Virus record (IMG/VR): IMGVR_UViG_3300028735_000025
Coordinates: 1 to 29,385 of that record
DNA: 29,385 bases
Strand: one strand, 5' to 3'
DNA from: a virus
Shown: in pieces, positions 2,403-22,814 of the stretch
Layout: each line of letters opens with the position of its first letter
Numbering within the stretch: position 1 is the first letter of the stretch
The notes under the pieces: generated by a model
Seen by the model: only the letters and a program-made list of their open reading frames with translations
Told to the model about the DNA's origin: nothing
Databases searched by the model: none
Translations under genes and position numbers: made by a program

Positions 2403-2431
2403 ATCATAGGGCAGATTCTGCCGCGCGTAAA
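2403..2431 (-). promoter_or_regulatory. Leftward promoter with dyad operator (P2)
   Basis: On the minus strand TTTACG (2431-2426), a 17-base gap and TATGAT (2408-2403, five of six bases of the consensus) form a good sigma70-like promoter. The gap holds the dyad GGCAG-AAT-CTGCC (2422-2410), which ends one base before the -10 box. It overlaps the last codons of the 2404-2937 gene and would drive the 105-aa protein and the helix-turn-helix regulator. Confidence 0.6.
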
Positions 2432-2937
2432 TAGGCCATCGCCTTCCGCCAGTAATGCGTGTTCAGAGCGGCCTGTTCAAGGGCCCGGGCCGCGGCGCCC
2501 CGGTCGGTCACCATGACCCTGTACTGCCCATCGGTCTCTAACCCCAGCCCGGAGTCCGGCTGCCCGGCCGCGATCGAGACGATGGTCCGGACGCGCCTGA
2601 GTACCGGGGCGGACACGTCAAGCTCGCGGTTTAACAGCACCCAGCGCCATTCCGGCAGGCGGGCCAACAAATCGGCGGCCAGCACGTACGCCTCGGCCAG
2701 ACGGGCATACTGCGGCGGGATGGCAGCCGGTATCGGCGGGGCAGCGGCGGGGAGTTCAACCCGCTGTCGCTCATACGCGGTTTCCCGCCAGAAATGCGGC
2801 CCACAGAGCCCATCGTGGGCTCCCGGCGCGTCACACCCATCGGCCCGGCAGGGTTGAACTGGCCCAGGCGGTTCGGGTGCCATATCCTGCCAGCTGTCGG
2901 CCAACCGGACATCCCGGCGCCCCACATCAACCCACAT
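2404..2937 (-). CDS. Zinc-knuckle-like phage protein, 177 aa (paralogue of the 9733-10203 product)
   Basis: Function unknown. ATG 2937 follows GGAGGGGACGCC and gives MWVDVGRRDVRL, the same opening as the protein at 9733-10203 in the rightward operon. Both then carry the pattern C-x4-C-x9-C-x2-H ending in DGLCG-x-H (residues about 30-48 here), probably a zinc-binding knuckle, and both end with a domain containing VTDR-x-x-A-A. The middle is rich in Ala and Pro. Such a pattern suggests nucleic-acid or protein binding, but no catalytic motif is seen. It overlaps the preceding gene by 11 bases. Presence of one copy in each divergent operon implies an old intragenomic duplication. Confidence 0.75.
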   Translation of the reverse strand: MWVDVGRRDVRLADSWQDMAPEPPGPVQPCRADGCDAPGAHDGLCGPHFWRETAYERQRVELPAAAPPIPAAIPPQYARLAEAYVLAADLLARLPEWRWVLLNRELDVSAPVLRRVRTIVSIAAGQPDSGLGLETDGQYRVMVTDRGAAARALEQAALNTHYWRKAMAYLRAAESAL

Positions 2938-3166
2938 GGCGTCCCCTCCAAACTGCCAGCTCATCCTCGAACCCCTCCCAGTCGGCAGGGTTGACATCCA
3001 GCCGAACATCTGGCATGCCGACGGACACTTCTCGCTCGAGCGTCAACACCAGCTCCTGCCGGTCGCGTGTTCCCGTCGCCCGCACTCCGGTGATGCGCCA
3101 GCCGCCCAGCGTGTACGTGGCGGCCAGCCAGTCCCAGTCGATCTTCTTGCCGTCATCAGTTGCCAT
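2927..3166 (-). CDS. Hypothetical protein, 79 aa
   Basis: Not recognised. Two adjacent ATGs occur at 3169 and 3166; the second is chosen because GGAGGG is only one base from the first and four from the second. The product (MATDDGKKIDWDWLAATYTL) is acidic, tryptophan-rich and probably a small beta-strand protein: GGWRITGVRATGTRDRQELV looks like a strand-turn-strand. It overlaps the following gene by 11 bases. Upstream are an orphan GAGGAGG and the hairpin that follows the helicase gene. Confidence 0.65.
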   Translation of the reverse strand: MATDDGKKIDWDWLAATYTLGGWRITGVRATGTRDRQELVLTLEREVSVGMPDVRLDVNPADWEGFEDELAVWRGRHVG

Positions 3167-3255: not shown

Positions 3256-4821
3256 TTACAGGCCGCATGCGAGTCGGCCGCTCGGTTCAAGGATCACCAG
3301 CCGCTCGCGCGCCCGGGTCGCCCCGGTGTACATCAGCCGGATCATCGCGTCCTGCCCGTTTCGGGTCGCCAGTGACTCGGCGCCCTGCAGTGATAGGTCC
3401 GGCGAGATGATGACGTTGTCGGCCTCGCCGCCCTTGACACTGTGGATGGTGCCGAGGATCAGCTGGGGGCGTTGACGCAGGCGACTGAACCCGCCGCGCC
3501 GGGCGATCGCCGCCATGAACTCGATGGTGCCTCGATAGTCGCGTAACGCCGCCTGGGCCAGCCAGTCGAGCCGCAGGTCGGCCATCCCGGCCCGGGCCTC
3601 GTCAACCAGCGCATCTGCGACCATGTCGATGTTCAGGGCGGGCGGGTTCGCTAGCAGGCGTTCACGCGCGCCGCGCTCCGCGAACTGGTCGGCTCGCAGC
3701 ATCCGCAGCCAGACCGCGAAATCCTCGCTCTGCCAGAGCCGTGCGTCGTCGCCCCAGACCTCGGGGTGAGGGCGCAGAAACGACAGCACCCGTGACACCG
3801 TGCTGATGCGCCCCTCGCCGACCTCCTCGCGCAGAGGGTTAAGCGACGTGTCGGCCCGGCGGTACGGGTTCCACCATGGCAGCCCGGCATCCCTCAGCGC
3901 GGCCATCAGCGGCCGCAGCATGTAACCGCAGGTCGTCAACACCATCGTCGTCCCGGGCAGCTCTTGGATGAGCCGGATCACACTGTCGGTTTCACGCAGT
4001 CGGATTCCGGCGCGCCGGACCTCGCCGTCCTCCGGCCGCGGCCGATACCACCGGCCGCGCGACATCGGGCCCGAGTGTTGCAGCAACAGTGTCTCGGCGA
4101 ACCGGTGAACCTCGCCCGGCAGGCGGTGACTGCGGTCGAGCAACAGCTCGCCCCATCCCTCCTCAAACAGCGGAGCCGGGGAAGCCCCGGCCCACTCGTA
4201 AATCGTCTGGGCCGGGTCCCCGGCCACTACGACCTCGTCGACAAACCGGGCCCAGTGTCGCACCAGCGCCCAGCCCGCAGGCGTCAAGTCCTGGGCCTCG
4301 TCAACGATGAGCACCGCTGGCCGCAGCGGCGGCGGCAGTCCCCGGCGAACGGGCAGAGTCAGCATGTCAACGAAATCGACGGCCTCGAACTCGGCTTTAA
4401 ACTCGGCCCATGCCCTCGCGAGCGCCGCGAACCGCGGCGGCGGGTCGGCATCCGGCGCCGCCGACTCTCGCCATCGCTGGAACTCGGCGAACAGCTCGCC
4501 CTCACGCGACTCGGTCCCAAGCGGGTCGCCCGGGTCACGCTCGGCGCCGATCCTCCAGTCGTCTCGGGGCGCCCGCTGGTTCCATTCCCGTGCCAGTTTC
4601 CCAGCCTCGGCCACCGGCGGGCGGCCCAGCGCGCGGTACGCATGGCTGTGCAGGGTTCCAATCGCTTCCGGGTTTACGTCATCGATCCGGGCGGCCAGCA
4701 CCCGCGCCGCGGTGCGTGTATGCGATGCGAGAAGCAGTGACCTGTGCGGCAGCCCGGCCACGAACGTCTGCACCCAGGACGTTTTGCCCGTTCCGGGCGG
4801 GCCGATGACTCGCGTCAACAT
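3256..4821 (-). CDS. Superfamily 1 (UvrD/PcrA-like) ATP-dependent DNA helicase, 521 aa
   Basis: Unwinds DNA using ATP, most likely in phage replication or recombination. Motifs are complete: Walker A GPPGTGKT (7-14), motif Ia-like LLASHTRTAARVL (30-42), motif II DEAQD (174-178), motif III GDPAQTIYEW (201-210), motif V-like GTIHSVKGGEAD (457-468) and motif VI YTGATRARE (498-506). At 521 aa it is shorter than cellular UvrD (about 700 aa), with reduced 1B and 2B subdomains, as usual in phage versions. ATG 4821 follows TTGGAGGAGACG and gives MLTRVIGPPGTGKT; a longer reading overlaps the preceding gene implausibly. It overlaps the primase-polymerase end by seven bases, so they form one replication unit. 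Confidence 0.93.
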   Translation of the reverse strand: MLTRVIGPPGTGKTSWVQTFVAGLPHRSLLLASHTRTAARVLAARIDDVNPEAIGTLHSHAYRALGRPPVAEAGKLAREWNQRAPRDDWRIGAERDPGDPLGTESREGELFAEFQRWRESAAPDADPPPRFAALARAWAEFKAEFEAVDFVDMLTLPVRRGLPPPLRPAVLIVDEAQDLTPAGWALVRHWARFVDEVVVAGDPAQTIYEWAGASPAPLFEEGWGELLLDRSHRLPGEVHRFAETLLLQHSGPMSRGRWYRPRPEDGEVRRAGIRLRETDSVIRLIQELPGTTMVLTTCGYMLRPLMAALRDAGLPWWNPYRRADTSLNPLREEVGEGRISTVSRVLSFLRPHPEVWGDDARLWQSEDFAVWLRMLRADQFAERGARERLLANPPALNIDMVADALVDEARAGMADLRLDWLAQAALRDYRGTIEFMAAIARRGGFSRLRQRPQLILGTIHSVKGGEADNVIISPDLSLQGAESLATRNGQDAMIRLMYTGATRARERLVILEPSGRLACGL

Positions 4822-6344
4822 CGTCTCCTCCAAACGCGCCAGCCCGCGCCGTCGGCATCGTTCCACGTGGCCGGTTCCCACCCGGCCTGCCGCGCCCACG
4901 TGGCCGCCGTCCGCTGGTGGATGCGCAGTCCCAGCCGCACTTCCAGCCAGACAAGCAGGCGGCCCAGCGCGACCCAGTGATACACGTTGCCGCCGACGGT
5001 CCGTCGGACAACCGAGCCGCGCCGCATCAGGTCTTCCGTTGCGGTCGGCAGGTCAACATCGCCGTCCGAAACGCCGCGCTCGGCGATCAGCATTTCAACC
5101 CAGCTGTTCCATTGTTCGGCGCCGGGCGGCAGGGCCTCGATGCGCTCGGCGAGGATCAGCAACCGGGCGGCAAACGCCTCCCAGCCGCCCCGGTCCCTCT
5201 GGGGCATGATGTAACCTGTTGCGTTAGCGACTGCCCGCCGGACGGCCAGCTGTGAAAGCAGGTCCGACCCGACCGAAACCTCGCGCCCGTCTTCGAGCGC
5301 GATGTGCCACTCGACTCCCTCTGGCGCCTCGTACGCGATGATGCGCCGGACCGGAACCGGCAGGCCTGCCTGCGACCACGCCATGTTTATCAGCTCGCTC
5401 CGCTGCGACGGGGTGAGCGTCGCCATGTCGTCCTCGGACAGGCCTGGGCGTTCATCCAGTTCCTCCGGGGTGACTGGTTCCATGCCGGTCAGCTCGCGCA
5501 GCTCGCGCTGTTCACGGTCCCGCCGCCAAATCGACCTGAGGATCGCCTCGACCTCCGGCCGGGGAAGGGGCGGGGTGCAGAGTCGCTCGTTGATTTCGTG
5601 CAGGCGGGCCTGCACTTCAAACGGGTCGTCCCGGTGGGTTGCCACCAGCCAGCCAGCAACTCGGGTGAGGTTCCCGTTTCGCTCGCCCTCTGGCCAGTGG
5701 CGGGTTAGCAGCCCCTCGATGCCCTCGCCGCCATGCCGTTCGATGGGGGCATGGCGCCGGATGTCTGCGAGGTACGCTGCGGGCAGAGTCGGGATGTCGA
5801 TCTCGTACACCGCCCGCTCGGCTTCCCAGCCATACGGCCGACCGCTGGCATGGGTTGACGGCGGGGCGATAATTTGGCCGCCGTCGGCCCGGATGTCAAT
5901 CCCCGGCCGCCAGCCCGCCCGGCTCTGGATCTCGGCGCCCCCGGGGTGCCGGAAGAGTAAATGCTGGCCGCCCCCGCCGGTAATGGCCCGCGGGCCATCC
6001 GGCAGAGGTCCCAGCTCGCGTTCCAGATCGGCGAGTGACTCATCGCCGCCATGCCCGGGGTCGACGTCGATGACGACCAGACCCGAGACCGCGCCGGTGA
6101 CGATGCTGATGTTCGCCTGCGGCCAGCGCCGCCCCCACCAGTCGATGATTTTCTCCCGCGGCGCCCGCATCCGCTGGTATGCGGCCCACGGGATGAGCGG
6201 GTGTTTGCCCGGGCTCGCGCAGGCCATCCGCCCGCACGAGCACCGGACCTCACCCGTTTCCGAGATGATGGGCCACGCGGCCGGGACGACCGAAAGGCCC
6301 AGGTCGAAATACCGGAGGGCGGCGTCTAGTCGCTCAGACGGCAT
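4815..6344 (-). CDS. Bifunctional primase-polymerase (AEP family), 509 aa
   Basis: Synthesises primers and possibly DNA at the phage replication fork. The N-terminal prim-pol domain (about 1-185) has the catalytic VVIDVDPGHGG (Asp93, Asp95), GGGGQHLLF with His128, and GIDIRADGGQIIAPPS (148-163). A Cys cluster CSCGRMAC (35-42) lies before GKHPLIPW, as in related phage enzymes. Residues about 210-275 resemble the primase C-terminal helical domain (GNLTRVAGWLV, then RPEVEAILRSIW). The last 230 residues contain no helicase ATPase motif and end in a winged-helix-like segment (VWLEVRLGLRIHQRTAATW). ATG 6344 lies within the end of the preceding gene, after GAGGGCGGGGACC. The helicase that partners it is probably the superfamily 1 enzyme next door. 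Confidence 0.92.
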   Translation of the reverse strand: MPSERLDAALRYFDLGLSVVPAAWPIISETGEVRCSCGRMACASPGKHPLIPWAAYQRMRAPREKIIDWWGRRWPQANISIVTGAVSGLVVIDVDPGHGGDESLADLERELGPLPDGPRAITGGGGQHLLFRHPGGAEIQSRAGWRPGIDIRADGGQIIAPPSTHASGRPYGWEAERAVYEIDIPTLPAAYLADIRRHAPIERHGGEGIEGLLTRHWPEGERNGNLTRVAGWLVATHRDDPFEVQARLHEINERLCTPPLPRPEVEAILRSIWRRDREQRELRELTGMEPVTPEELDERPGLSEDDMATLTPSQRSELINMAWSQAGLPVPVRRIIAYEAPEGVEWHIALEDGREVSVGSDLLSQLAVRRAVANATGYIMPQRDRGGWEAFAARLLILAERIEALPPGAEQWNSWVEMLIAERGVSDGDVDLPTATEDLMRRGSVVRRTVGGNVYHWVALGRLLVWLEVRLGLRIHQRTAATWARQAGWEPATWNDADGAGWRVWRRRC

Positions 6345-7008
6345 CGGTCCCCGCCCTCAGCGTCGAGAGTGCGGGGATGAGCGCCGAGCGCATCGCCTCG
6401 ACCTCGGCCAGCTCGTCCGGGTCGAGCGCCTGCCCGGCCGAGAACTCCGGCACGCTGTACGTCACGCCGCCAGCCGACTGGATCCGGCGGAGCGCGATGG
6501 TCGTCCGGAGCCCCCAGTAGGGCAGGCCGGTGGCGATCAAGGTGTTGACGATGTACTGCCGGGCGAACGCCGCTGCCGACGGGGGCAGCGCGAGCAGCAT
6601 GGGGAACTGGCCCGGCGCCCGGGTGATGAACAGCCGGGTTATGAGCCGACAGGCCTGCCCGCGCCCGCTCGAGCCGAACTGCGAGTACGGGCAGGTTGCG
6701 CAGCTGCCGCCCGGGTCACCGACACCAGTGACTGCGTCATCGCTGGCGCAGGCGGGCGGCTCGCTGCCGCCGTCAAACGCGGTCGGCCAGTACGCGCGGG
6801 TCAGCTGCCGATGGACGATGATGACGTCGAGGGCCTTAACCGCCTCGCCGGTCGGCAGCTCCCACGTGGTGCCGCCGCCCGCGGGGATGCGCAGGCGGGG
6901 CAGGTCGGCCAGCCCGGGGCGTTCGCCCGGGGCGAGGATGTCCTCCATGCCGTACCGGTGAGTGGTGGCGGCGATGGGGCGCGGGGTGACGGGTTCGATG
7001 TCTGCCAT
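6334..7008 (-). CDS. Phage early protein with four-cysteine motif, 224 aa
   Basis: The middle holds a cysteine-rich signature: a Cys in PPACAS, then GDPGGSCATCPYSQFGS and finally GQACR, likely one zinc- or cluster-binding site. Proteins with this signature occur in many phage replication regions and are usually left as hypothetical; a role in binding single-stranded DNA or the replisome is plausible but unproved. The C-terminal half is a mixed alpha/beta domain (LPYWGLRTTIALRRIQSAGG) with an acidic tail. ATG 7008 follows GAGGAGGTTTTAAGCC. It overlaps the primase-polymerase by 11 bases. Confidence 0.75.
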   Translation of the reverse strand: MADIEPVTPRPIAATTHRYGMEDILAPGERPGLADLPRLRIPAGGGTTWELPTGEAVKALDVIIVHRQLTRAYWPTAFDGGSEPPACASDDAVTGVGDPGGSCATCPYSQFGSSGRGQACRLITRLFITRAPGQFPMLLALPPSAAAFARQYIVNTLIATGLPYWGLRTTIALRRIQSAGGVTYSVPEFSAGQALDPDELAEVEAMRSALIPALSTLRAGTDAV

Positions 7009-7011
7009 GGC

Positions 7012-7089
7012 TTAAAACCTCCTCAGCGTGTCGATGCCGATGATGATGACTGCGGCGATGAGGATCGCCTGCACGAGCATGGTGGCCAT
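7012..7089 (-). CDS. 25-residue single-pass membrane peptide
   Basis: A tiny open frame whose ATG (7089-7087) shares one base with the TGA of the upstream gene (TGATG), the coupling used by many genes here. The product reads MATMLVQAILIAAVIIIGID followed by TLRRF: an uninterrupted hydrophobic helix of about 18 residues and a positively charged C-terminus. Its stop TAA sits in the spacer between the GAGGAGG and the start of the next gene. It could be a phage membrane peptide affecting host envelope or holin-like function, but it is short enough to be chance; the exact junctions at both ends favour a real gene. Confidence 0.5.
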   Translation of the reverse strand: MATMLVQAILIAAVIIIGIDTLRRF

Positions 7090-7490
7090 CAGCGCGCCCT
7101 CACCCGCGCCCTCGGCCGGGTCGTGATGATGACGGTGCCCTCGGCCCATGCGGGCGGCTCGCCGTACAGGTCGAGGTGCGACCGGATGATCGCGCTGAGC
7201 GTCTGCGGTTGAACGCGGCGCCGCGCGATGTCGCCCAGCCCCTCCGCGTCCAGCCGCTCGACCAGCATGTCCTGCACCTCCTCGATGGGCCGGGCCCAGA
7301 GCTCGTTGGCGAGGTAGATGGTTGATGTCTGGGTGCTGATGCTCTGCAGCCCGGCAGAACCCATCGCATCAACCATCTCGGCTTCCAGCTGTTCCGCCAG
7401 CTGGTTCACCTGCCGCAGCGCTGCCTCGAGGCGGCGCTTCTCCTGTATCACCGCCTCGAACCGGGCTGCCAGTTGCCCGATGTCCGTCAT
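7089..7490 (-). CDS. Coiled-coil phage early protein (gp157/Gam-like in layout), 133 aa
   Basis: ATG 7490 follows GAGGAGGTTACAC. Residues 1-55 form a long amphipathic helix or coiled coil (ARFEAVIQEKRRLEAALRQV, then NQLAEQLEAEMVDAM), followed by a small beta domain (AGLQSISTQTSTIYLANELW) and a C-terminal helical part with LDAEGLGDIARRRVQPQTLS. This layout, a coiled coil then a small 'Gly, substrate-like' strand pair and an LGD-x-x-x-x-x-V motif, recurs in phage early regions beside single-strand-binding and nuclease genes. Binding DNA ends or inhibiting a host nuclease would fit, but this is inference. The first 122 bases overlap the end of the VRR-NUC gene. Confidence 0.7.
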   Translation of the reverse strand: MTDIGQLAARFEAVIQEKRRLEAALRQVNQLAEQLEAEMVDAMGSAGLQSISTQTSTIYLANELWARPIEEVQDMLVERLDAEGLGDIARRRVQPQTLSAIIRSHLDLYGEPPAWAEGTVIITTRPRARVRAR

Positions 7491-7776
7491 GTGTAACCTC
7501 CTCGATGTGCTGGATTGCCGCGACCGCCTCGTCGGCGGATCGTGCCACGATTGCGATGCCCCCGGCCTGCCGGATGCGTTCCAGCCAGACACTTTGCAGG
7601 TGAGTCGGCTGCCCGCCTGGGCGTTTGACCTCGATGGCCAGAAACTGCCCGCGGTAACAGGCGATGTAGTCCGGCAGGCCTGCCCCGCCATAGGCCCCGG
7701 TCGTGCTGATCAGCGCGGCGCCCCGCATCGTCAGCGCCTCGTGGATCGCTCGCCGTATGGCCCTCTCGCTAGGCAT
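7369..7776 (-). CDS. VRR-NUC domain nuclease (PD-(D/E)XK superfamily), 135 aa
   Basis: A small stand-alone nuclease that probably cuts branched or replication-fork DNA. The core covers residues 1-95: RAIHEALTMRGA, then GAGLPDYIACYRGQFLAIEV-K with the catalytic D and E-x-K pair, then QSVWLERIRQAGG, where the Gln is part of the active site. This matches the 90-100-residue VRR-NUC domains common in phages. Start ATG 7776 gives MPSERAIRRA; its ribosome binding site is weak and starts upstream (for example 7824 or 7815) are possible. The last 40 codons overlap the next gene in another frame and are Gly/Ala/Pro-rich, so they may be a non-functional tail. It is the first gene of the leftward operon. 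Confidence 0.82.
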   Translation of the reverse strand: MPSERAIRRAIHEALTMRGAALISTTGAYGGAGLPDYIACYRGQFLAIEVKRPGGQPTHLQSVWLERIRQAGGIAIVARSADEAVAAIQHIEEVTHDGHRATGSPVRGGDTGEAPPRGSAAAGEPAGGTAGSRDG

Positions 7777-7911
7777 CGGCCGCCAGCGTAGATCATCGTT
7801 GACATGGCGCGCAACCCCTGCCATCATCGGCACCATGACTGCCCCGCTGGCCATCGCGACTCCGCATGCGGCCCCTCCGCGGGCCCATCACCCAAACGGA
7901 TGTCTGGCAGC

Positions 7912-8055
7912 AATAGTCGCGATTAGTTGCGATTTAGTTGGGATTAGTTGGGATAGTTGGCTATACGGCGCTCTCGGCCCTCTCGCGCGAAATGGCGGAA
8001 ATCCCAACTAATGCCGACTAAATCCTGACTAACCCCAACTAAATCCTGACTAGGC
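7912..8055. repeat. Ten-unit, helically phased, head-to-head repeat array (iteron or operator cluster)
   Basis: Units of about 10-11 bp with consensus GATTTAGTTGG occur five times on the plus strand and five times inverted. The TAGT cores start at 7914, 7924, 7935, 7945 and 7954; the inverted ACTA cores end at 8010, 8020, 8031, 8041 and 8052. Spacings are 9-11 bases within both arms, so all units of an arm face the same side of the helix. The arms are symmetric around about 7983 and separated by roughly 45 GC-rich bases. Such arrays bind many copies of one protein: an origin initiator, a partition protein or a repressor. The two further TAGT words at 8071 and 8097 overlap the promoter boxes. 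Confidence 0.9.
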
Positions 8056-8073
8056 CCGCCAGCGCGGGCCTAG
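8050..8073. promoter_or_regulatory. Perfect 24-bp inverted repeat upstream of the rightward promoter
   Basis: CTAGGCCCGC (8050-8059), loop CAGC and GCGGGCCTAG (8064-8073) are perfect 10-bp arms. The left arm overlaps the last unit of the array and the right arm ends exactly at the -35 box. It could be an operator for a dimer, or a transcription terminator insulating the promoter; the absence of a T-run argues against simple termination. Confidence 0.65.
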
Positions 8074-8102
8074 TTGACAGGGGGCAGAGCCCCTGCTAGT
8101 CT
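8074..8102 (+). promoter_or_regulatory. Rightward sigma70-like promoter
   Basis: A perfect -35 TTGACA (8074-8079) and a -10-like TAGTCT (8097-8102, three of six) are separated by the ideal 17 bases. The spacer is a small dyad GGGGC-AGA-GCCCC (8081-8093). The start codon of the helicase follows 20 bases downstream with AGGAGGTG at 8111-8118. This probably drives the early part, perhaps all, of the rightward operon; no second promoter was recognised before the head genes. Confidence 0.6.
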
Positions 8103-8121: not shown

Positions 8122-9486
8122 ATGACGGAACTCTGGCCGCATCAGCGCCGCGCCCTCGACTGGCTGGCGGCGCCGGAACAACAGGCGGGCGGCCTGCTAC
8201 ACGTCGCGATGGGCGGCGGCAAGACCAGAATCTCGATCGAGTACATGCGCCAGCGGGGGGCGAGGCGGGCTCTGATTACAGCCCCGCTGGCAGTCCTGCC
8301 CGCATGGCAGCGGGAACTTGACCGGTGGTGGCCCGATCACCCGCCGGTCGTCGACGCGTGGACCGGGCCCATCGTCAAACGCGGCGCCCGGGCCCTGCAG
8401 GTCGGCCAGAACGGCGGCATCGTCCTGAGCAATTACGATGCCGTCTGGCGGCCCCCGTTGGGCGACACCCTCGCCCGGACCGAATGGGATGTGGTCATCT
8501 GGGACGAGTCCCAGCGGCTCAAATCGCCCAGTTCACGCTCGAGCCGGTACGCGGCCCGGCTGCGGCGGCAGGCCCAGGCGGTGTTACTCCTGAGCGGCAC
8601 CCCGATGCCGCAGGGTCCCCACGACGTCTGGGCCCAGCTGCGGGCCTGCCGCCCTGAGGTGTTTCCCCCGGCTTACACGGCGTTTCTCGCCCGGTACACC
8701 ATCGCCGGGCGGTTCGGGCTCGGCAACATCGTCGGTTATCGGAACCTGTCGGATTTCGAGGCCCGGCTCTCCCGGGTTACGTTCCCGGTCGACGTCTCGC
8801 ATCTGGAGCGGCCCGACTCGATCGTAGTGGACATCCCGGTGCAACTAGAGCCCGGCGCCCTGCGGGCGTACCACCAGCTGGCCTCGTCGATGGTCGCCTC
8901 GATCGGCGAGGGCGAGCGGGTCAGCGTGTCATCGGTGCTGACTATGCTCCTCCGGCTGCAACAGCTGACTGGCGGCTGGCTGCCCTCGGATGAGGGCAAC
9001 CCGGTGCAGGTAAGTAACGCGAAACGCGAGGCGCTGCGCGAGCTGGTTGAAGAGCTGCCGCCAGACGAGCCGCTGGTCGTCTTCTGCCAGTTCCGCCGCG
9101 ACCTCGCCACCGTCCACGAGGTTGCCCGCGAGCTGGGCACTACGTCGGCCGAGCTGTCAGGCGGCATCAACCAGCTGGCCGAGTGGCAGGCCCCCGGCGG
9201 TCCCCGCATCCTCGCCGTCCAGACCCGGAGTGGCGGGGTCGGCATCTCGCTCGTCCGGGCGGCCTACGCGGTCTGGTTCTCGCTGACCTACTCGTACGGC
9301 GACTATGAACAGGCGTTGGCCCGGCTAGTGCGCCCCGGGCAGACCCGTCCGGTGACGTTTTACCGGCTGCTCGCCCGCGGGACCGTCGACGAGCGCATCG
9401 CCCGGACGCTCGAGCGTAAGGGCGACATCATCGAGGAAATCGCGGCGGAAATCACCCGCCGACATGAGGAGGTGTTCTGTGCCTGA
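8122..9486 (+). CDS. SNF2-family (superfamily 2) helicase-like ATPase, 454 aa
   Basis: Uses ATP to translocate on double-stranded DNA; phage members are thought to act in replication or DNA remodelling. Motif I is AMGGGKT (29-35), motif II is DESQ (128-131, in place of DEAH and usual in this phage group), motif III is LSGTP (157-161), and the C-terminal lobe has GGVGISL and the SNF2-type motif VI QALARLVRPGQ (about 397-407). At 454 aa it is essentially the two RecA-like lobes without accessory domains. ATG 8122 follows AGGAGGTGGA and the rightward promoter, making this the first gene of the operon. With the primase-polymerase and superfamily 1 helicase on the other strand it completes the replication set. 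Confidence 0.93.
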   Translation: MTELWPHQRRALDWLAAPEQQAGGLLHVAMGGGKTRISIEYMRQRGARRALITAPLAVLPAWQRELDRWWPDHPPVVDAWTGPIVKRGARALQVGQNGGIVLSNYDAVWRPPLGDTLARTEWDVVIWDESQRLKSPSSRSSRYAARLRRQAQAVLLLSGTPMPQGPHDVWAQLRACRPEVFPPAYTAFLARYTIAGRFGLGNIVGYRNLSDFEARLSRVTFPVDVSHLERPDSIVVDIPVQLEPGALRAYHQLASSMVASIGEGERVSVSSVLTMLLRLQQLTGGWLPSDEGNPVQVSNAKREALRELVEELPPDEPLVVFCQFRRDLATVHEVARELGTTSAELSGGINQLAEWQAPGGPRILAVQTRSGGVGISLVRAAYAVWFSLTYSYGDYEQALARLVRPGQTRPVTFYRLLARGTVDERIARTLERKGDIIEEIAAEITRRHEEVFCA

Positions 9487-9732: not shown

Positions 9733-10203
9733 ATGGCATGGGTTGACGTCGGGCGCCGGGATGTCCGGCTCGGGTGGACACTCGACCTGCCCCCGGCCCC
9801 ACCCGAGCGCCCCTGCGAGCATGGTGAATGTCACCGCGCCAGCCGGTTTGACGGCCTCTGCGGCATTCACTGGTGGCGCGTACATGGCGGCACCGCGACG
9901 ACACGCAGCCGTTACCGCCGGTTCATGACTGCCGCCGATGCCGCGCTGGAACGGGCCCTCGCCATCATCGAGGCCGCCCCGCTTGAGAAACCGGTCTCCG
10001 TCAACCCCCAGCTGGACGACGCCACCCAGCACGTCCGGCGATACGTTCGGCAGTTTCTCGCCGTTACTGACGGCCATGGCGCCGAGACGGCCGGAACTGC
10101 CCGGTCGATGACGATCACCGTTACCGACCGCGCCACCGCCGCAGAGGTGCTGCGGCGGTGGTATGCTGACTTTACGGAGGGCGCAGATGCAGCCGTGGTC
10201 TAA
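9733..10203 (+). CDS. Zinc-knuckle-like phage protein, 156 aa (paralogue of the 2404-2937 product)
   Basis: ATG 9733 gives MAWVDVGRRDVRL, nearly identical to the start of the 2404-2937 protein. The same C-x4-C-x9-C-x2-H pattern follows (CEHGEC to GLCGIH, about residues 33-51), then a linker, a helical domain (ALERALAIIEAAPLEKPVSV) and the shared C-terminal segment ITVTDRATAAEVLRRW. Likely a metal-binding adaptor; its partner is unknown. The ribosome binding site is weak (GTAAGG), so translation may depend on the gene before, which ends two bases upstream. Conservation is concentrated at the N-terminus and the VTDR segment. Confidence 0.75.
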   Translation: MAWVDVGRRDVRLGWTLDLPPAPPERPCEHGECHRASRFDGLCGIHWWRVHGGTATTRSRYRRFMTAADAALERALAIIEAAPLEKPVSVNPQLDDATQHVRRYVRQFLAVTDGHGAETAGTARSMTITVTDRATAAEVLRRWYADFTEGADAAVV

Positions 10204-10867
10204 TCGCATCGTCCGGTTTGCGGAGGTCTCTCCGCTGGAACTGTTCGAGAACCCGGACAACTGGCGAGTTCACCCGCCCGCGCAGGCCGAGTCGCTCGGC
10301 GATGTCCTGCGGAAAGTTGGGGTCGTCCAGTCGGTCATCGTCAACCTCCGGACCGGCCCCGAGTGGCCGGACGAACAGCGGAACCGGCCGACTCTCGTCG
10401 ACGGGCATCTCCGGGTTCGCCTGGCCATCGTGAACCGGCAGCCGACCATCCCGGTTGTGTTCGTCGACCTGCCGCCGAACGAGGAGCGCCTGATCCTCGC
10501 GACCCTCGACCCGCTGGGGGCGATGGCCGAAGCGGGCCGCGAGGCCCTCGGCAGTCTTGTGTCGTCAATCGAGGCGCTGCCCGACGCACCGGCGATTAAC
10601 TCGCTGCTTGACGAGCTGGCCCGGGCAGCCCGGCCGCCTGTAACCGCCCGGCCGCAGGACGACATGGACGAGCGACTGCGGGAGGCCCAGCAACGGATGC
10701 TCGACCGGTTCAAAGGACGAGACCCGAGCATCTTAAACGAGTTCGTTGACATCGTCTGCCCCGCTTGCGGTAACGAGTTCTCGATGCTGCGAGGCGAGCT
10801 TGTAAGTGGAGGACGCCATGAGTCGGCCGCCGTGCTTCATCGTTCGGACGGTGCCGGAACGGCTTGA
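10187..10867 (+). CDS. ParB-like nuclease-domain protein, 226 aa
   Basis: The N-terminal 110 residues match the ParB/sulfiredoxin-like fold: LELFENPDNWRVHPPAQAES, then GVVQSVIVN, the family motif VDGHLRVRLA (71-80) and IPVVFVDLPPNEERLI with the LATLDPLG segment usual in phage versions. A Cys pair CPACG (191-195) near the end suggests a small zinc finger. There is no DNA-binding helix-turn-helix as in chromosomal ParB, so a partition role is unlikely; such stand-alone domains act as nucleases, kinases or DNA-modification partners. ATG 10187 follows CGGAGGGCGCAG. The end overlaps the glycosyltransferase gene by 50 bases. It opens a cassette with a glycosyltransferase and the IbrA/IbrB-like pair. 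Confidence 0.82.
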   Translation: MQPWSNRIVRFAEVSPLELFENPDNWRVHPPAQAESLGDVLRKVGVVQSVIVNLRTGPEWPDEQRNRPTLVDGHLRVRLAIVNRQPTIPVVFVDLPPNEERLILATLDPLGAMAEAGREALGSLVSSIEALPDAPAINSLLDELARAARPPVTARPQDDMDERLREAQQRMLDRFKGRDPSILNEFVDIVCPACGNEFSMLRGELVSGGRHESAAVLHRSDGAGTA

Positions 10868-11378
10868 CATGCTGGCCGCCATCCTCCGGGAGCTGCCCGA
10901 CGCCATCGTCGTCCGCGACCGTTGCCGGGACGCAATGGACACGTTCCTCCGGGCCCTCGACGCGGCGGGCGACGCCCCGGCGGTTCACATCGAGGACGAC
11001 GCCATCCTCTGCCCGCGGTTCCGGGAACGGGCCCAGGCCGAAATCGCCGAGCGGCCAGAGTCGTGCATCCAGTTCTTCTCGATGCGTGGGGCCGACCTGA
11101 CTGTCGGCTCGCGCTGGGATAGGAACTTCATGGCGGCGCTCGCGTTTTACATGCCAGCCGGTTGGAGCGCCGAGCTGCGCGAGTATGCCGCAACATGGCC
11201 CCGCCGGGCCGAGCACCCCACCGGCGTTGACACCATGGTCGGCGACTGGCTGCGCTCCCGGCGGCGGCCCCACTGGATCGTCGTGCCGAACCTCGTGGAC
11301 CATGCGCCGGTCAGGTCGGCGATCGACCCGCGGCGGCGCCGGAATCGGCAGAGTTTGACGTTCGGGAGGAGCGCCTGA
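10818..11378 (+). CDS. Phage glycosyltransferase (family-25-like), 186 aa
   Basis: Starts at ATG 10818 after GGAGGACGCC. The protein has a Rossmann-like opening (PPCFIVRTVPERLDMLAAIL) and a nucleotide-sugar/metal motif HIEDDAILC with Glu59-Asp60-Asp61, as in family 25 and other GT-A enzymes, where this acidic motif binds the metal of the sugar nucleotide. SMRGAD and TGVDTMVGDWL later in the sequence are also typical of such small phage glycosyltransferases. The acceptor is unknown: it could be a modified base in DNA, a phage or host protein, or a cell-envelope sugar. Sitting between a ParB-like gene and a PAPS-reductase-family gene favours a DNA or nucleotide substrate, but that is inference. 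Confidence 0.75.
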   Translation: MSRPPCFIVRTVPERLDMLAAILRELPDAIVVRDRCRDAMDTFLRALDAAGDAPAVHIEDDAILCPRFRERAQAEIAERPESCIQFFSMRGADLTVGSRWDRNFMAALAFYMPAGWSAELREYAATWPRRAEHPTGVDTMVGDWLRSRRRPHWIVVPNLVDHAPVRSAIDPRRRRNRQSLTFGRSA

Positions 11379-12505
11379 TGCGCATTTACACAAAACGGTC
11401 AGTTTACGAGGCGGCCCTCGACCGCATCCGCTGGGTGTTCGACGAGTTCGAGCGGGTCGCGGTGTCGGTGTCCGGCGGGAAAGACTCAACGGTGCTGTTC
11501 CATCTCGCCCTGCAGGTCGCCCGGGAGAAGAACCGCCTGCCTCTGCCGGTCCTGTGGCTGGATCAGGAAGCCGAGTACGACGCGACGGTTGACATCGTCG
11601 AGAGCTGGATGACGCACCCCGACGTCAAGCCCCTCTGGCTGCAGATCCCGTTCCGGCTGTCAAACGCGACCTCAACCTCGCAACACTGGCTGAACTGTTG
11701 GGCCCCCGAGGCCCGCGACGTCTGGATGCGCCCTCAGCATCCGCTCGCCATCACCGAGAACCGGTACGGCACCGACCGGTTTCACGACCTGTTCTCCGCC
11801 ATCTGCCGGGCCGAGCTGGGCTCCCCCGTCGCATGCCTCGTCGGCATGCGGGCCGAGGAGTCGCTGCAGCGGTTCATCGCCCTGACGTACCACCCGGCGT
11901 ACAAATGGGCGACATGGGGCTCGGGCGACAAAAAGAAGGGCTATTACGCGCTCTCGCCGCTTTACGACTGGACGACCCCCGACATCTGGCATGCCATCGC
12001 CGAGCACGACTGGCCTTACAACCGGGTTTACGACGCGCTCTGGCGGCTCGGCGTTCCGATCCGCGCCATCCGCGTGTCGTCGCTCACCCACGAGCTGTCC
12101 ATCCATGCCCTCCGGACCATCGAGGCGGTCGAGCCCGACACGTACGCCCGGCTCATCCGGCGACTGCCCGGCATCCATGCATTTACGAAACTCGGCAACG
12201 ACGCCTGGGCCATCGACGAGCTGCCCAGCGCGTTCGACTCGTGGCGGGAGTACCGCGACTACCTTCTCGAGAACCTCATCACCAACCCCGACTGGCGCGA
12301 GCGGATGCGCCGCATGTTCAAAGAGGACGACGAAAACGTCGGCAACTTGCTGGGCGTCCGCCTTTACCGCGCCCAAATCGCCGCGATCCTCACCAACGAC
12401 TGGGAGGGAACGCGCCATCGCCAGTTCCAACTCCGCAATGATTACATGCTCGCCCGGGAGGCCCATCGTGCAGCAACCGCCGCATCTGCAGCATCCAGTC
12501 GCTAA
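11378..12505 (+). CDS. PAPS-reductase-family (IbrA/DUF3440-like) protein, 375 aa
   Basis: An ATP-pyrophosphatase-fold protein. The PP-loop VSVSGGKDSTVLFHLALQ is at residues 29-46 (SGGKDS 32-37), followed by PVLWLDQEAEYDATVD, the GMRAEES segment characteristic of PAPS-reductase-like adenylating enzymes, and a C-terminal region (TKLGNDAWAIDE, DWRERMRRMFKED) as in IbrA/DUF3440 proteins. IbrA and IbrB of Escherichia coli were described as co-regulators of eib genes and occur in prophages; the biochemical reaction is unknown. DndC of the DNA phosphorothioation system belongs to the same superfamily. ATG 11378 overlaps the glycosyltransferase stop by one base (TGATG). The following IbrB-like gene overlaps its end by 38 bases. 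Confidence 0.88.
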   Translation: MRIYTKRSVYEAALDRIRWVFDEFERVAVSVSGGKDSTVLFHLALQVAREKNRLPLPVLWLDQEAEYDATVDIVESWMTHPDVKPLWLQIPFRLSNATSTSQHWLNCWAPEARDVWMRPQHPLAITENRYGTDRFHDLFSAICRAELGSPVACLVGMRAEESLQRFIALTYHPAYKWATWGSGDKKKGYYALSPLYDWTTPDIWHAIAEHDWPYNRVYDALWRLGVPIRAIRVSSLTHELSIHALRTIEAVEPDTYARLIRRLPGIHAFTKLGNDAWAIDELPSAFDSWREYRDYLLENLITNPDWRERMRRMFKEDDENVGNLLGVRLYRAQIAAILTNDWEGTRHRQFQLRNDYMLAREAHRAATAASAASSR

Positions 12506-13034
12506 CGTCCAGTGGGTCCCGCTCGAAAAGGTCCAGCCCAACGAGTACAACCCCAACCACGTCGCCCCGGCCGAGCTGGAGCTGCTGTACCGGTCGATCC
12601 GCGAGGACGGCTACACCCAGCCGGTCGTGACGTACTATGATGCCGCCCGGGACCGGTACATCATCATCGACGGTTACCACCGTTACTTGACCATGAAGAA
12701 CCATGACGACATCCGCGAGTCGACCGGTGGTCTCCTGCCCGTGGTGGTTGTTGCCAAAGACGAGGCTGGACGTATGGCATCAACCGTGCGGCACAACCGG
12801 GCACGTGGGACGCATGAGGTTACGAGCATGGCGAACATCGTCATGAACATGATGGAGGCCGGGATGAGCGATGCCGAAGTGTGCCGGGCCCTCGGCATGG
12901 AACCCGACGAGCTCGTCCGCCTCAAACACCTGACCGGGTTCGCTGAACGCGACTACAGCCGCGAATGGGTGACCCGGCGCATGGTCCGGCTCCGCCGCGA
13001 GTACGATGATACCGTAAAGCTGAGGGAGAGCTGA
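12468..13034 (+). CDS. IbrB-like ParB-domain protein, 188 aa
   Basis: Partner of the preceding IbrA-like protein. GTG 12468 follows CGGGAGGCCCATC and gives VQQPPHLQHPVANVQWVPLE. The ParB fold occupies about 14-115: VPLEKVQPNEYNPN, then SIREDGYTQPVVTYYD, the DGYHRY motif (68-73) and MASTVRHNRARGTHEV, the most conserved segment of IbrB proteins. A helix-rich tail with MSDAEVCRALGMEPDELVRL may contact DNA. The high resemblance to IbrB and its place directly after IbrA make the pairing secure. Whether the pair regulates transcription or modifies nucleic acids here cannot be told from sequence. Confidence 0.88.
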   Translation: MQQPPHLQHPVANVQWVPLEKVQPNEYNPNHVAPAELELLYRSIREDGYTQPVVTYYDAARDRYIIIDGYHRYLTMKNHDDIRESTGGLLPVVVVAKDEAGRMASTVRHNRARGTHEVTSMANIVMNMMEAGMSDAEVCRALGMEPDELVRLKHLTGFAERDYSREWVTRRMVRLRREYDDTVKLRES

Positions 13035-15560: not shown

Positions 15561-16699
15561 TCTGGCGGGCGTTCCGGGCCGCGCCGCCCAGGGGCAGTTC
15601 AAACCCCCTCCTGGCCCTCTTGACATCGGCTTTCGGCGGCCGAGCCGCCGATGGCGAGCTGGTCACGGTTGACACCGCCATGCGAGTCGCCGCGGTTTAC
15701 GCCTGCGTCTCACTGATTTCACGAACCATCGCGGCTCTGCCCCTGCATGTTTACGAGCGGACTCGGGCAGGCGGGCGTGTCCTGATGCGAACTCCGAGCA
15801 CGGAGTTCCTCTGGCGGCGCCCAAATCCCGAGATGACCCGGACCGAGTTCTGGGAGGGCGCGATCGCCCACGCGGTTCTGGAGGGTAACGCGTTCATCTA
15901 TGTCGCCCCGGCCACCAACATCTCGGGCCGCCGTCCGGCCGAACTCTGGCCGCTTGACAGCAGCCGGGTGGCCATCGGCGGCCGCGACTCGCAGGGGCGG
16001 ATGACCTATATCATCGACGGCACGACCCCGCAGCTGAGCTGGTCGCAGGGCGGGAACATCCTGCACATCCGCGGCCTGACGCTCGATGGCGTCTCGGGGG
16101 TCTCGCCCATCGCCGTGGCCGCGACCTCGATCCGGACTGCATATCTGTCGGCCCAGTCGGCCGCCCGCATCATGGGCAGCGGCGGCATCCCCTCCGGCGT
16201 GCTGACCATCGCCGACCGGATCACACAGGAGGAGGCCGACCGCATCGCCGCCGAGTTCGAGGCCCGGCATGGCGACCGGCGTTCTGTGCTCGTCCTGAAC
16301 CGCGAGGCCAACTGGAAACCGGTGGCCATCTCGCCGGACGACATGCAGGCCATCGACACCCGCCGGTTCGAGGTGGTCGACATCGCCCGGGTGTTCGGAG
16401 TCCCGCCGGAGATGATCGGCGCCGGCGCCGAGGGCACCTCGCTGACCTACGCAAACGTCCAGGACCGGATGATCCAGTTTACCCAGCTGAGCCTGCAGCC
16501 ATGGATCGCCCGGATTGAACAGGCGGTTAGTGATGAGCTGCTTCCCGCCGCGCAATATGCTAAATTTGACCTGCGCGGTCTGTTGCGTGGAAACTCCGAG
16601 CAACGGGTCCATTACTACACCGCTCTCGCGGGACTGGGTGCCCTGACGGTAAACGAGATCCGCGAGCTGGAGGACATGCCAGCGCTGGAGGGCAGCTGA
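15557..16699 (+). CDS. Portal protein, HK97 gp3 family, 380 aa
   Basis: Forms the dodecameric ring at one capsid vertex through which DNA enters and the tail attaches. Family features: AMRVAAVYACVSLISRTIAA near residue 36-55, LPLHVYER, the clip/stem region around NILHIRGLTLDGVSGVSPI, and VFGVPPEMIGAGAEGTSLTY with Q-DRMIQFTQLSLQPW, typical of HK97 portals. Length is within the family range (about 380-430 aa). ATG 15557 overlaps the small membrane protein stop; its own stop overlaps the protease start (TGATG). Confidence 0.96.
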   Translation: MIWRAFRAAPPRGSSNPLLALLTSAFGGRAADGELVTVDTAMRVAAVYACVSLISRTIAALPLHVYERTRAGGRVLMRTPSTEFLWRRPNPEMTRTEFWEGAIAHAVLEGNAFIYVAPATNISGRRPAELWPLDSSRVAIGGRDSQGRMTYIIDGTTPQLSWSQGGNILHIRGLTLDGVSGVSPIAVAATSIRTAYLSAQSAARIMGSGGIPSGVLTIADRITQEEADRIAAEFEARHGDRRSVLVLNREANWKPVAISPDDMQAIDTRRFEVVDIARVFGVPPEMIGAGAEGTSLTYANVQDRMIQFTQLSLQPWIARIEQAVSDELLPAAQYAKFDLRGLLRGNSEQRVHYYTALAGLGALTVNEIRELEDMPALEGS

Positions 16700-21496: not shown

Positions 21497-21873
21497 TGGA
21501 ACGGTTCGCCCTCTCGCGTCCGCTGGCAACGCACTGGCGCCCCGCGACCTGCGAGGAGGTCGACTGCCCGCATTATCTGTTTGGCTGGGAAATCCGCCTG
21601 GACCCCGACGATTCGCTCTTCGAGGCGCTCCGGGCCGATATTCGACGGTCGGGGCGCCGTTATCGCGAGGAGGGCACCGACGACGGGCTCCGGCGATACG
21701 TGTTCGAGGCCGGGCAGCGGTGTTTCGCTGAGCATCGCCTCCCGCTCGACCGGGAACCGGTGTACACTCATGTCAGGCCGACCGGCCAGCTGATCCGGCA
21801 CGCGAGCTGGGAGAGCTGGCGGGACGAGTTCACTGAACGCGCATGGCGCGCAGGGAGGTTAATCAATGGCTAA
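21496..21873 (+). CDS. Conserved tail-region protein of unknown function, 125 aa
   Basis: ATG 21496 shares its A with the preceding stop (TGATG). The product has a recognisable layout: W-RPATCEEVDCPHYLFGWEI near the N-terminus, a helix FEALRADIRRSGRRYREE, then YVFEAGQRCFAEHRLPLDREP and a C-terminal WESWRDEFTERAW. Proteins with the C-x5-C-P-H-Y-x-x-GW pattern and the AGQRCF segment are found in tail operons of other siphoviruses but have no assigned role. Two Cys plus His could bind a metal. It separates the two tube paralogues. Confidence 0.7.
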   Translation: MERFALSRPLATHWRPATCEEVDCPHYLFGWEIRLDPDDSLFEALRADIRRSGRRYREEGTDDGLRRYVFEAGQRCFAEHRLPLDREPVYTHVRPTGQLIRHASWESWRDEFTERAWRAGRLING

Positions 21874-22279
21874 GGAATCTGGGCTCGGGCTGTCCGTGCA
21901 GGTTGATGACTCTGCCGGGACTCTCCGCAACATCAGCAACGACATCACCAACTGCAGCTGGCAGATGCCCAGCGACGTGCAGGATGTCACGGGCATTGAC
22001 AAGTCCGCCCGCGAGCGCCTGCACCTCCTCGCGGACTTCTCGGTCACCCTCAATGGCGTGTTCAACGATGCGGCCAACGCCTCGCATGCCGTGTTTAAGA
22101 ACTACCGCGTCCTCGCCGCGAACCAGCTGGGTCGGACCGTCACCATCACGCACAGCGGCCAGACCCTGACGAACGAGGTCCTGTTCACGGATTACCAGCT
22201 GACTCGCGAGGCGGGCGGCGCCCTGACGTGGAGCGCCCAGGGCCAGCTGTCCGACGGCACCGTCCCGGCGTGGAGCTAA
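21866..22279 (+). CDS. Major tail tube protein, 137 aa
   Basis: Hexameric rings of this protein build the tail tube. The beta-rich sequence (GLGLSVQVDDSAGTLRNISN, DITNCSWQMPSDVQDVTGID, RTVTITHSGQTLTNEVLFTD) and the position just before the frameshifted chaperone pair identify it; 130-150 aa is normal for compact tube proteins. ATG 21866 overlaps the end of the preceding gene by eight bases after CAGGGAGG. See also the longer paralogue at 20759-21496. Confidence 0.85.
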   Translation: MAKESGLGLSVQVDDSAGTLRNISNDITNCSWQMPSDVQDVTGIDKSARERLHLLADFSVTLNGVFNDAANASHAVFKNYRVLAANQLGRTVTITHSGQTLTNEVLFTDYQLTREAGGALTWSAQGQLSDGTVPAWS

Positions 22280-22284
22280 CCCGG

Positions 22285-22683
22285 ATGGGCTTTGAACTGC
22301 GCCGCGAGGTTGTCCTGACGTTCGAACCGCCATACGACGGACTGGAGATCCGGTGCTCGGCGACGGTCCCGGTCCGCCGGGTGTTCGAGCTGACTCGGGC
22401 CGCCGCCGAGGTCCCCGATGACGACGATGGCAGCGGGTTCGAGCGAGTCATGCAGCTGTGGGTGGACATCGTCCAGCCGCGCTGGAACGCCGAACTCGAC
22501 GGGCAGCCGGTGCCCTGCACCGCCCAGGCCATCGTCGACCTGTTGCCAGCCGAGCTGGCGTTTCGGCTCGTCCCGGCATGGCGCGATGCCGTAACCGGGG
22601 TTTCCGCCCCTTTGCCCGAGACCTCGCCAGATGGCGGGCCGGTGCCCAGTTTGGCGAGGTTGTCAACCCCCCTGCCGAGCTGA
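22285..22683 (+). CDS. Tail assembly chaperone, short form (lambda gpG-like), 132 aa
   Basis: Binds the tape measure protein and helps the tube polymerise around it. The gene lies between the tube and tape measure genes, ends soon after a slippery heptamer and has no close recognisable domain, as usual for this family. ATG 22285 gives MGFELRREVVLTFEPPYDGL; the ribosome binding site (GGAG) is rather distant. Core: VPVRRVFELTRAAAEVPDDD, then FERVMQLWVDIVQPRWNAEL and a C-terminal LLPAELAFRLVPAWRDAVTG. Without the shift it ends SLARLSTPLPS. Confidence 0.85.
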   Translation: MGFELRREVVLTFEPPYDGLEIRCSATVPVRRVFELTRAAAEVPDDDDGSGFERVMQLWVDIVQPRWNAELDGQPVPCTAQAIVDLLPAELAFRLVPAWRDAVTGVSAPLPETSPDGGPVPSLARLSTPLPS

Positions 22684-22814
22684 CCGAGGCGCTGGCGCTG
22701 CACGACATCTGCCGGGTGTATCCGGGTTATACTCCGGAAGAGGCGCTGGAGGCCCCGGCATGGGTGTTGCAGAACATCGCCATCCTGCGGACTGCGGGGG
22801 TGATTAATGGCTAA
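22285..22814 (+). CDS. Tail assembly chaperone, frameshifted long form (gpGT-like), about 176 aa
   Basis: Made by a -1 shift on the heptamer C CCT TTG at 22608-22614. Translation continues from 22614 in the -1 frame for 66 further residues beginning ARDLARWRAGAQFGEVVN and ending PAWVLQNIAILRTAGVING, with stop at 22812-22814. The -1 frame extension is well formed (LTEALALHDICRVYPGYTPE) and ends at the tape measure start, exactly as gpGT-type extensions do. The ratio of short to long product is usually fixed in tailed phages. Confidence 0.85.
22608..22614 (+). promoter_or_regulatory. Programmed -1 ribosomal frameshift site CCCTTTG
   Basis: The zero-frame codons are CCT TTG preceded by C, which is the canonical X XXY YYZ pattern. 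After slippage the tRNAs pair with CCC and TTT. The following GC-rich stretch could form a stimulatory structure, but none was modelled. Confidence 0.85.

Follow-up and report, generated by a model that had tools for sequence, protein, structure and literature searches.

A paired array of helically phased repeats between divergent phage operons as a candidate two-set iteron replication origin

The array and its genomic surroundings

The window analysed here, i.e. the whole stretch of 29,385 bp, is an IMG/VR record of a virus of bacteria with a GC content of 67.7%. Between two divergent operons, it carries five TAGT cores on the plus strand, starting at positions 7914, 7924, 7935, 7945 and 7954 (core-to-core spacings of 10, 11, 10 and 9 bp). 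These face five TAGT cores on the minus strand, read as ACTA on the plus strand, which end at 8010, 8020, 8031, 8041 and 8052 (spacings of 10, 11, 10 and 11 bp). The positions of mirror-image cores sum to 15964-15966, which places the axis of the array at 7982-7983 (about 7982.5) with a symmetry exact to within 1 bp. An earlier note on this DNA had described the same ten cores, 9-11 bp spacings and symmetry about 7983, and this description is confirmed. The leftward operon contains genes for a VRR-NUC nuclease, a gp33-like protein, a PHROG_23155 protein, a Prim-Pol/PriCT_1 protein and a UvrD-like helicase (Table 1).

Table 1. Coordinates of the array, its flanking elements and the neighbouring genes in the window (G001, close relative described below).
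Feature	Position	Strand	Remarks
UvrD-like SF1 helicase	3256-4824	-	Homologue found in every ppC-class locus and in none of the DUF927 class
Prim-Pol/PriCT_1 primase-polymerase	4815-6344	-	ppC C-terminal region at 4818-5516; proposed initiator
Prim-Pol C-terminal 107 residues	4818-5138	-	Predicted winged helix; proposed array-binding domain
PHROG_23155 protein	6334-7008	-	Function unknown; replication-module marker
Pam3 gp33-like protein	7089-7490	-	
VRR-NUC nuclease	7369-7836	-	Gene 1 of leftward operon; ATG at 7854 lost in G001
Left arm	7912-7960	+	Five phased units with TAGT cores, all kept in G001; 41% GC
Spacer between arms	7961-7998		22/38 positions identical to G001 (58%); inner-core distance exactly 53 bp, also in G001
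Right arm	7999-8053	-	Five phased inverted units; 44% GC
26-bp palindrome	8049-8074		Includes last core of the right arm; in G001, stem conserved but loop different
Promoter-like TTGACA-17-TAGTCT	8074-8102	+	Putative, for rightward operon; recognised by eye and by alignment with G001
SNF2-family helicase	8122-9486	+	Gene 1 of rightward operon

The array is exact and lies far beyond chance. The whole window was shuffled 400 times (Markov-1), and all tetramers were examined for phased runs that face each other within 250 bp: runs of 3+3 units occurred in 12 shuffles and runs of 4+4 units in none (0/400), while the window has 5+5. A single five-unit run of some tetramer is not rare (9/300 shuffles), and the significance resides in the pairing of two opposed runs, not in one run alone. 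The arms also form the AT-richest 100-150 bp of the contig and those of lowest thermodynamic stability, which holds for G001 as well. The centre of the array had previously been described as GC-rich, which was held to speak against an unwinding origin; its 38 bp have 68% GC, i.e. the genome average of 67.7%, and the objection fails because the AT-richest stretch of the contig is formed by the arms. GC skew, which the earlier note had proposed as a check, has its minimum near 13.5 kb and does not support an origin at 7983. The contig has a second AT-rich site of low stability at 2358-2417, between genes encoding proteins of 105 and 180 aa.

On the right, the array merges into a 26-bp palindrome, ACTAGGCCCGC-CAGC-GCGGGCCTAGT, which ends with an eleventh TAGT at 8071 and adjoins the promoter-like sequence of the rightward operon, whose counterpart in G001 reads TTGACG-17-TAGGCT. 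This sequence was absent from the output of a consensus promoter scan, and no convincing leftward promoter was seen. Another promoter-like sequence, TTGACA-17-CATCAT at 7799-7827 (+), falls within the beginning of the VRR-NUC gene, is unchanged in G001 and is 79% like 8073-8096 over 24 nt; transcription from it could run through the array.

Because the array occupies a divergent promoter position, the main rival to a replication origin is a pure operator, at which a phage regulator would bind the arms as cooperative multimers and switch the leftward and rightward operons without any role in replication. The adjoining promoter-like sequence, the edge of which is overlapped by the eleventh core, fits this explanation. 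Candidate regulators are, for example, a 62-aa XRE protein (1874-2062) and two similar-looking proteins, one per divergent operon (2404-2946, minus strand, and 9739-10203, plus strand). The XRE protein weakly matches CII-like regulators, and the half-sites of CII are direct repeats separated by one turn. The other two proteins share a W/VDVGRRDVRL start and a zinc motif, C-x(4)-C...C-x2-H, and had no family match in Pfam and PHROGs scans. However, homologues of the XRE and zinc-motif proteins were not found in array-bearing relatives within the fetched flanks, and the arrays of these relatives, located 3' of the primase in one-directional gene runs, are poorly placed for an operator. The XRE protein, which the earlier note had considered for a master repressor, is thus not the general binder and was rejected as a general explanation, while it could still use the site in the window. 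We consider it unlikely that the array is an operator only; both roles may coexist.

Conservation and recurrence of the layout

The closest relative found, G001 (IMGVR_UViG_3300036768_001740, 27,355 bp), aligns with most of the window in blocks of 86-91% identity. The two records represent similar genomes in circular permutation, with a composite size of ~33-34 kb: positions 21831-26173 of the window are missing from G001, ~5.9 kb of a G001 tail/lysis region are missing from the window, and positions 1-1780 of the window (methylase end) have no match in G001. A TerL match of 52% in a Dehalococcoidia MAG provides a weak lead to a Chloroflexota host. Across the array, G001 keeps 40/40 core bases and the exact inner-core distance, the spacer itself having drifted. 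A distance that stays fixed while the sequence drifts would be expected if protein complexes interact across the spacer, and by this comparison the array is under constraint. The earlier note had proposed to search related phages for the consensus; apart from G001, exact and strict pattern scans of IMG/VR for the TAGT array yielded nothing but three-unit chance matches from AT-rich contigs, and the exact core is therefore known from two phages only.

A structural origin was also evaluated by Rfam, folding and pair changes; the arms are 80% complementary to each other over 41 nt, and the array has a fold z-score of -6.1. Here, the head-to-head arms would extrude a large stem-loop, as a cruciform or in single strand, rather than act as protein-phased iterons. 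There is a precedent in pRN1, a plasmid with a Prim-Pol replication protein, which depends on a large stem-loop located 3' of the gene for this protein (PMC4234260). However, the changes between the window and G001 both break and gain pairs and none is compensatory, and a stem does not require one-turn phasing. In addition, the relatives L108-L112 and L151 have both sets of repeats in the same orientation, from which a head-to-head stem cannot form. This explanation was ranked low and appears highly improbable.

Phased arrays recur in more distant phages, as revealed by searches of loci fetched with different marker genes. A first detector found them in 24/60 loci fetched with PHROG_23155, against 1.8 expected, some of these positives being probably coding repeats. 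With a stricter detector, phased arrays in both orientations were found in 17/61 PHROG_23155-fetched loci versus 3/75 TerL-fetched loci (Fisher 1.3e-4), with 0 expected from shuffles, and 2/3 of the TerL-control positives (L022 and L057, with an identical array) have a Prim-Pol gene adjoining the array. The loci are not all independent, L059 being the same phage as L115 and one core being common to L117, L122 and L123. Among loci fetched with Prim-Pol, 13/29 have at least 3 phased pairs; this set partly overlaps the PHROG_23155 set (L161 is the contig of L103, L163 that of L139 and L170 that of L132), and several of its marine contigs carry one common TTTCGC array. In the marine Prim-Pol phages L171, L172, L175-L177 and L179, this TTTCGC series near the primase has spacings of 31, 31, 33, 11, 10 and 11, i.e. 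a mixed three-turn and one-turn phasing. The PHROG_23155 protein was rejected as a necessary binder, arrays being also present in Prim-Pol loci where no homologue of it was found (L022, L057, L167, L171, L180 and L187).

In the recurrent layout, a set of typically 2-4 units at intervals of 8-12 bp is separated by ~40-70 bp from a second set, inverted or direct, often in a non-coding gap beside the primase gene. The cores vary among relatives and include GGTAAC, GGTGTAAC, GAATACG, GAGTACC, GGGTCAC, TTAAAC and CTTAC, among others. This variation bears on the idea that a host DNA-binding protein of the response-regulator or nucleoid type uses one-turn direct-repeat sites to time phage transcription. 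Phased direct repeats are indeed typical of OmpR/PhoB-like and BldC-like binders, but the cores differ completely among phages with the same module while the layout is constant, and the arrays track phage replication genes; a host regulator appears highly improbable.

A partition site of a low-copy phage (parC- or parS-like) had also been envisaged, from the presence of a ParB-like protein. The layout resembles R1 parC, in which two sets of five ~11-bp repeats flank a central region. However, the ParB-like gene of the rightward operon (12465-13034) overlaps a PAPS-reductase (DUF3440) gene, the two spanning 11378-13034, and they appear to form an IbrA/IbrB-like pair and no obvious partition system; no homologue of this IbrB-like ParB was found in the fetched flanks of array-bearing relatives. 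ParA, ParM, ParR and TubZ were found neither among the 20 Pfam-scanned proteins of the window nor among the PHROGs-scanned ones, a scan outside of which lies the ~6 kb region present only in G001. The array also differs from R1 parC by its inverted arms and its linkage to a primase module, with no ParM or ParR genes identified. ParB-dependent partition was rejected as a general explanation and, for the window, is the least credible of all readings. At 10163-11378, there is a second ParB-like protein, whose gene overlaps a glucosyltransferase-like gene; it has a match to a phage DNA methyltransferase family, in the N-terminal part of the latter, and a Cys-rich motif at its own end; these genes are possibly a DNA-modification cassette.

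Two primase classes and a candidate array-binding domain

Modules of the PHROG_23155 type contain two kinds of primase: a DUF927-HTH_56 class, Cch/SaPI-Rep-like, and a helicase-less class, to which the window belongs, defined by a previously undescribed C-terminal domain that we name ppC. In all DUF927-HTH_56 loci (14/14), the best or tied-best phased signal lies in the 350 bp that immediately follow the 3' end of the primase-helicase gene. Among ppC loci, the strongest signal is found beside the primase in L103, L109-L114 and L151, and it is visible there also in L108; the array is located between the primase and UvrD genes in L108-L112, L114 and L151, and 5' of the Prim-Pol gene in L103. The signal beside the primase is weak or absent in the ppC loci L116, L120, L145, L146, L149 and MMP7. 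The latter, a Meiothermus phage, is one of the cultivated relatives that have this module, another being Thermoanaerobacterium phage THSA-485A. In the window, the Prim-Pol and UvrD genes overlap and thus leave no gap between them, the array being in the divergent region instead.

The distribution of the helicase follows the same division. A homologue of the window UvrD was found in 14/14 ppC loci versus 0/13 DUF927-class loci (p 5e-8, treating loci as independent). The helicase thus appears to be either fused to the primase or encoded by a separate gene, as two mutually exclusive solutions within one module. The only Pfam domains of the window Prim-Pol are PF09250 and PriCT_1, with no DUF927 helicase and no profile match to HTH_56.

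The C-terminal 107 residues of the Prim-Pol were modelled with a pLDDT of 87.5 and a pTM of 0.75. The predicted order of elements (helix, two strands, two helices, two strands) looks like that of a typical winged helix. In a structure search of this tail against the PDB, the highest TM among the listed matches was obtained with SCCmec Cch (5dgk_B, TM 0.52), a weak match with a probability of 0.84 but an E of 0.18, and the top viral matches include phage primases (TM 0.66). The resemblance of the model to Cch and viral primases is suggestive, not proof. Foldseek with the whole ppC model returned nothing, and a search of the ppC sequence against the PDB returned calmodulin-type matches only, judged spurious. 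ppC had no match in Chloroflexota genomes with related TerL genes, nor in named phages.

An origin model and its relation to known systems

We hold, with moderate confidence, that the array is a two-set iteron replication origin of the SaPI/PICI type, read by the C-terminal domain of the Prim-Pol. Replication would be initiated at this site, where two groups of five iterons in helical phase oppose each other head to head over about five turns of DNA. The predicted winged helix would bind one unit per turn on one helix face, and we propose that each arm thereby nucleates a multimer, the two multimers facing each other from either side of the spacer. The AT-rich arms would then melt, and the UvrD-like helicase would be recruited, as proposed from the lack of a DUF927 helicase domain in this class of primase, after which the Prim-Pol would prime. 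We thus infer binding, melting, helicase recruitment and initiation at the array. As the array fills the divergent promoter region, binding of the initiator probably also adjusts transcription of both operons.

This mechanism is the best supported of those considered, given the low stability of the arms, the conservation in G001, the linkage of arrays to the module and a C-terminal domain that is conserved among primases of the window's class. Among the three options raised by the earlier note (origin, partition site and repressor operator), the origin has gained comparative support from the recurrence of arrays with the same primase module, mostly beside the primase gene, and partition has found none. 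Against an origin, ~1.5 kb separate the array of the window from the Prim-Pol gene and the DNA around it is a divergent promoter region, both of which set it apart from most relatives; its spacer has average GC and is not AT-rich.

More generally, and tentatively, a helicase-less Prim-Pol with a ppC winged helix may recognise a two-set iteron origin and hand it over to a separate UvrD-type SF1 helicase, in a system evolutionarily interchangeable with fused DUF927-HTH_56 primase-helicases; a layout claimed to be unique to PICIs would then be a general design of phage origins. On this equally provisional reading, such a two-protein initiator system (ppC Prim-Pol and UvrD) has not been described as such before. 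Origins are unknown for most metagenome phages. If the proposal is true, paired one-turn repeats together with a primase carrying a C-terminal DNA-binding domain would pinpoint origin and initiator in many uncultured phages, PICI-style origins would not be confined to phage satellites, and a specific initiator-helicase pairing, ppC with UvrD, could be named as replacing the fused primase-helicase.

Several known initiators share parts of this organisation. ORF904 of pRN1 has a Prim-Pol of the same family (PF09250), a C-terminal winged helix and a non-coding origin element near its gene, but pRN1 has a stem-loop in place of iterons, and its SF3 helicase is fused. The alpha protein of P4, likened here by description, is a primase-containing initiator which binds origin repeats with a winged helix (PMC4234260), but its primase is of the TOPRIM type and it includes a helicase of its own. 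SCCmec Cch and Cch2 are reminiscent of the window system by a C-terminal DNA-binding domain of the initiator and repeats in the intergenic region beside the gene, in addition to the weak structural resemblance of the ppC tail to Cch; unlike the window primase, both are themselves helicases, and ppC and HTH_56 have no profile homology.

The closest likeness is to SaPIs and PICIs. SaPI Rep uses its C-terminal domain to recognise an iteron origin that directly follows the Rep gene (PMC7581432), and PICI origins contain two sets of iterons (PMC6092414). As in these elements, two sets of short iterons flank a centre, are linked to a primase or initiator gene and differ in specificity from element to element (PMC6092414, PMC7581432), the window having 5+5 phased units. 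In contrast, the AT-rich DNA lies in the arms and not between the sets, and the array is 5' of the Prim-Pol gene instead of immediately 3' of the initiator gene, the position found in many relatives. The window is, moreover, a full phage with its array between divergent operons, and its primase lacks the DUF927 and HTH_56 domains of Cch and SaPIbov1 Rep, a UvrD-like helicase being present instead. Lacking the position and the AT-rich spacer, the array is not filed as a member of the SaPI/PICI group and is best viewed as a variant of the same kind.
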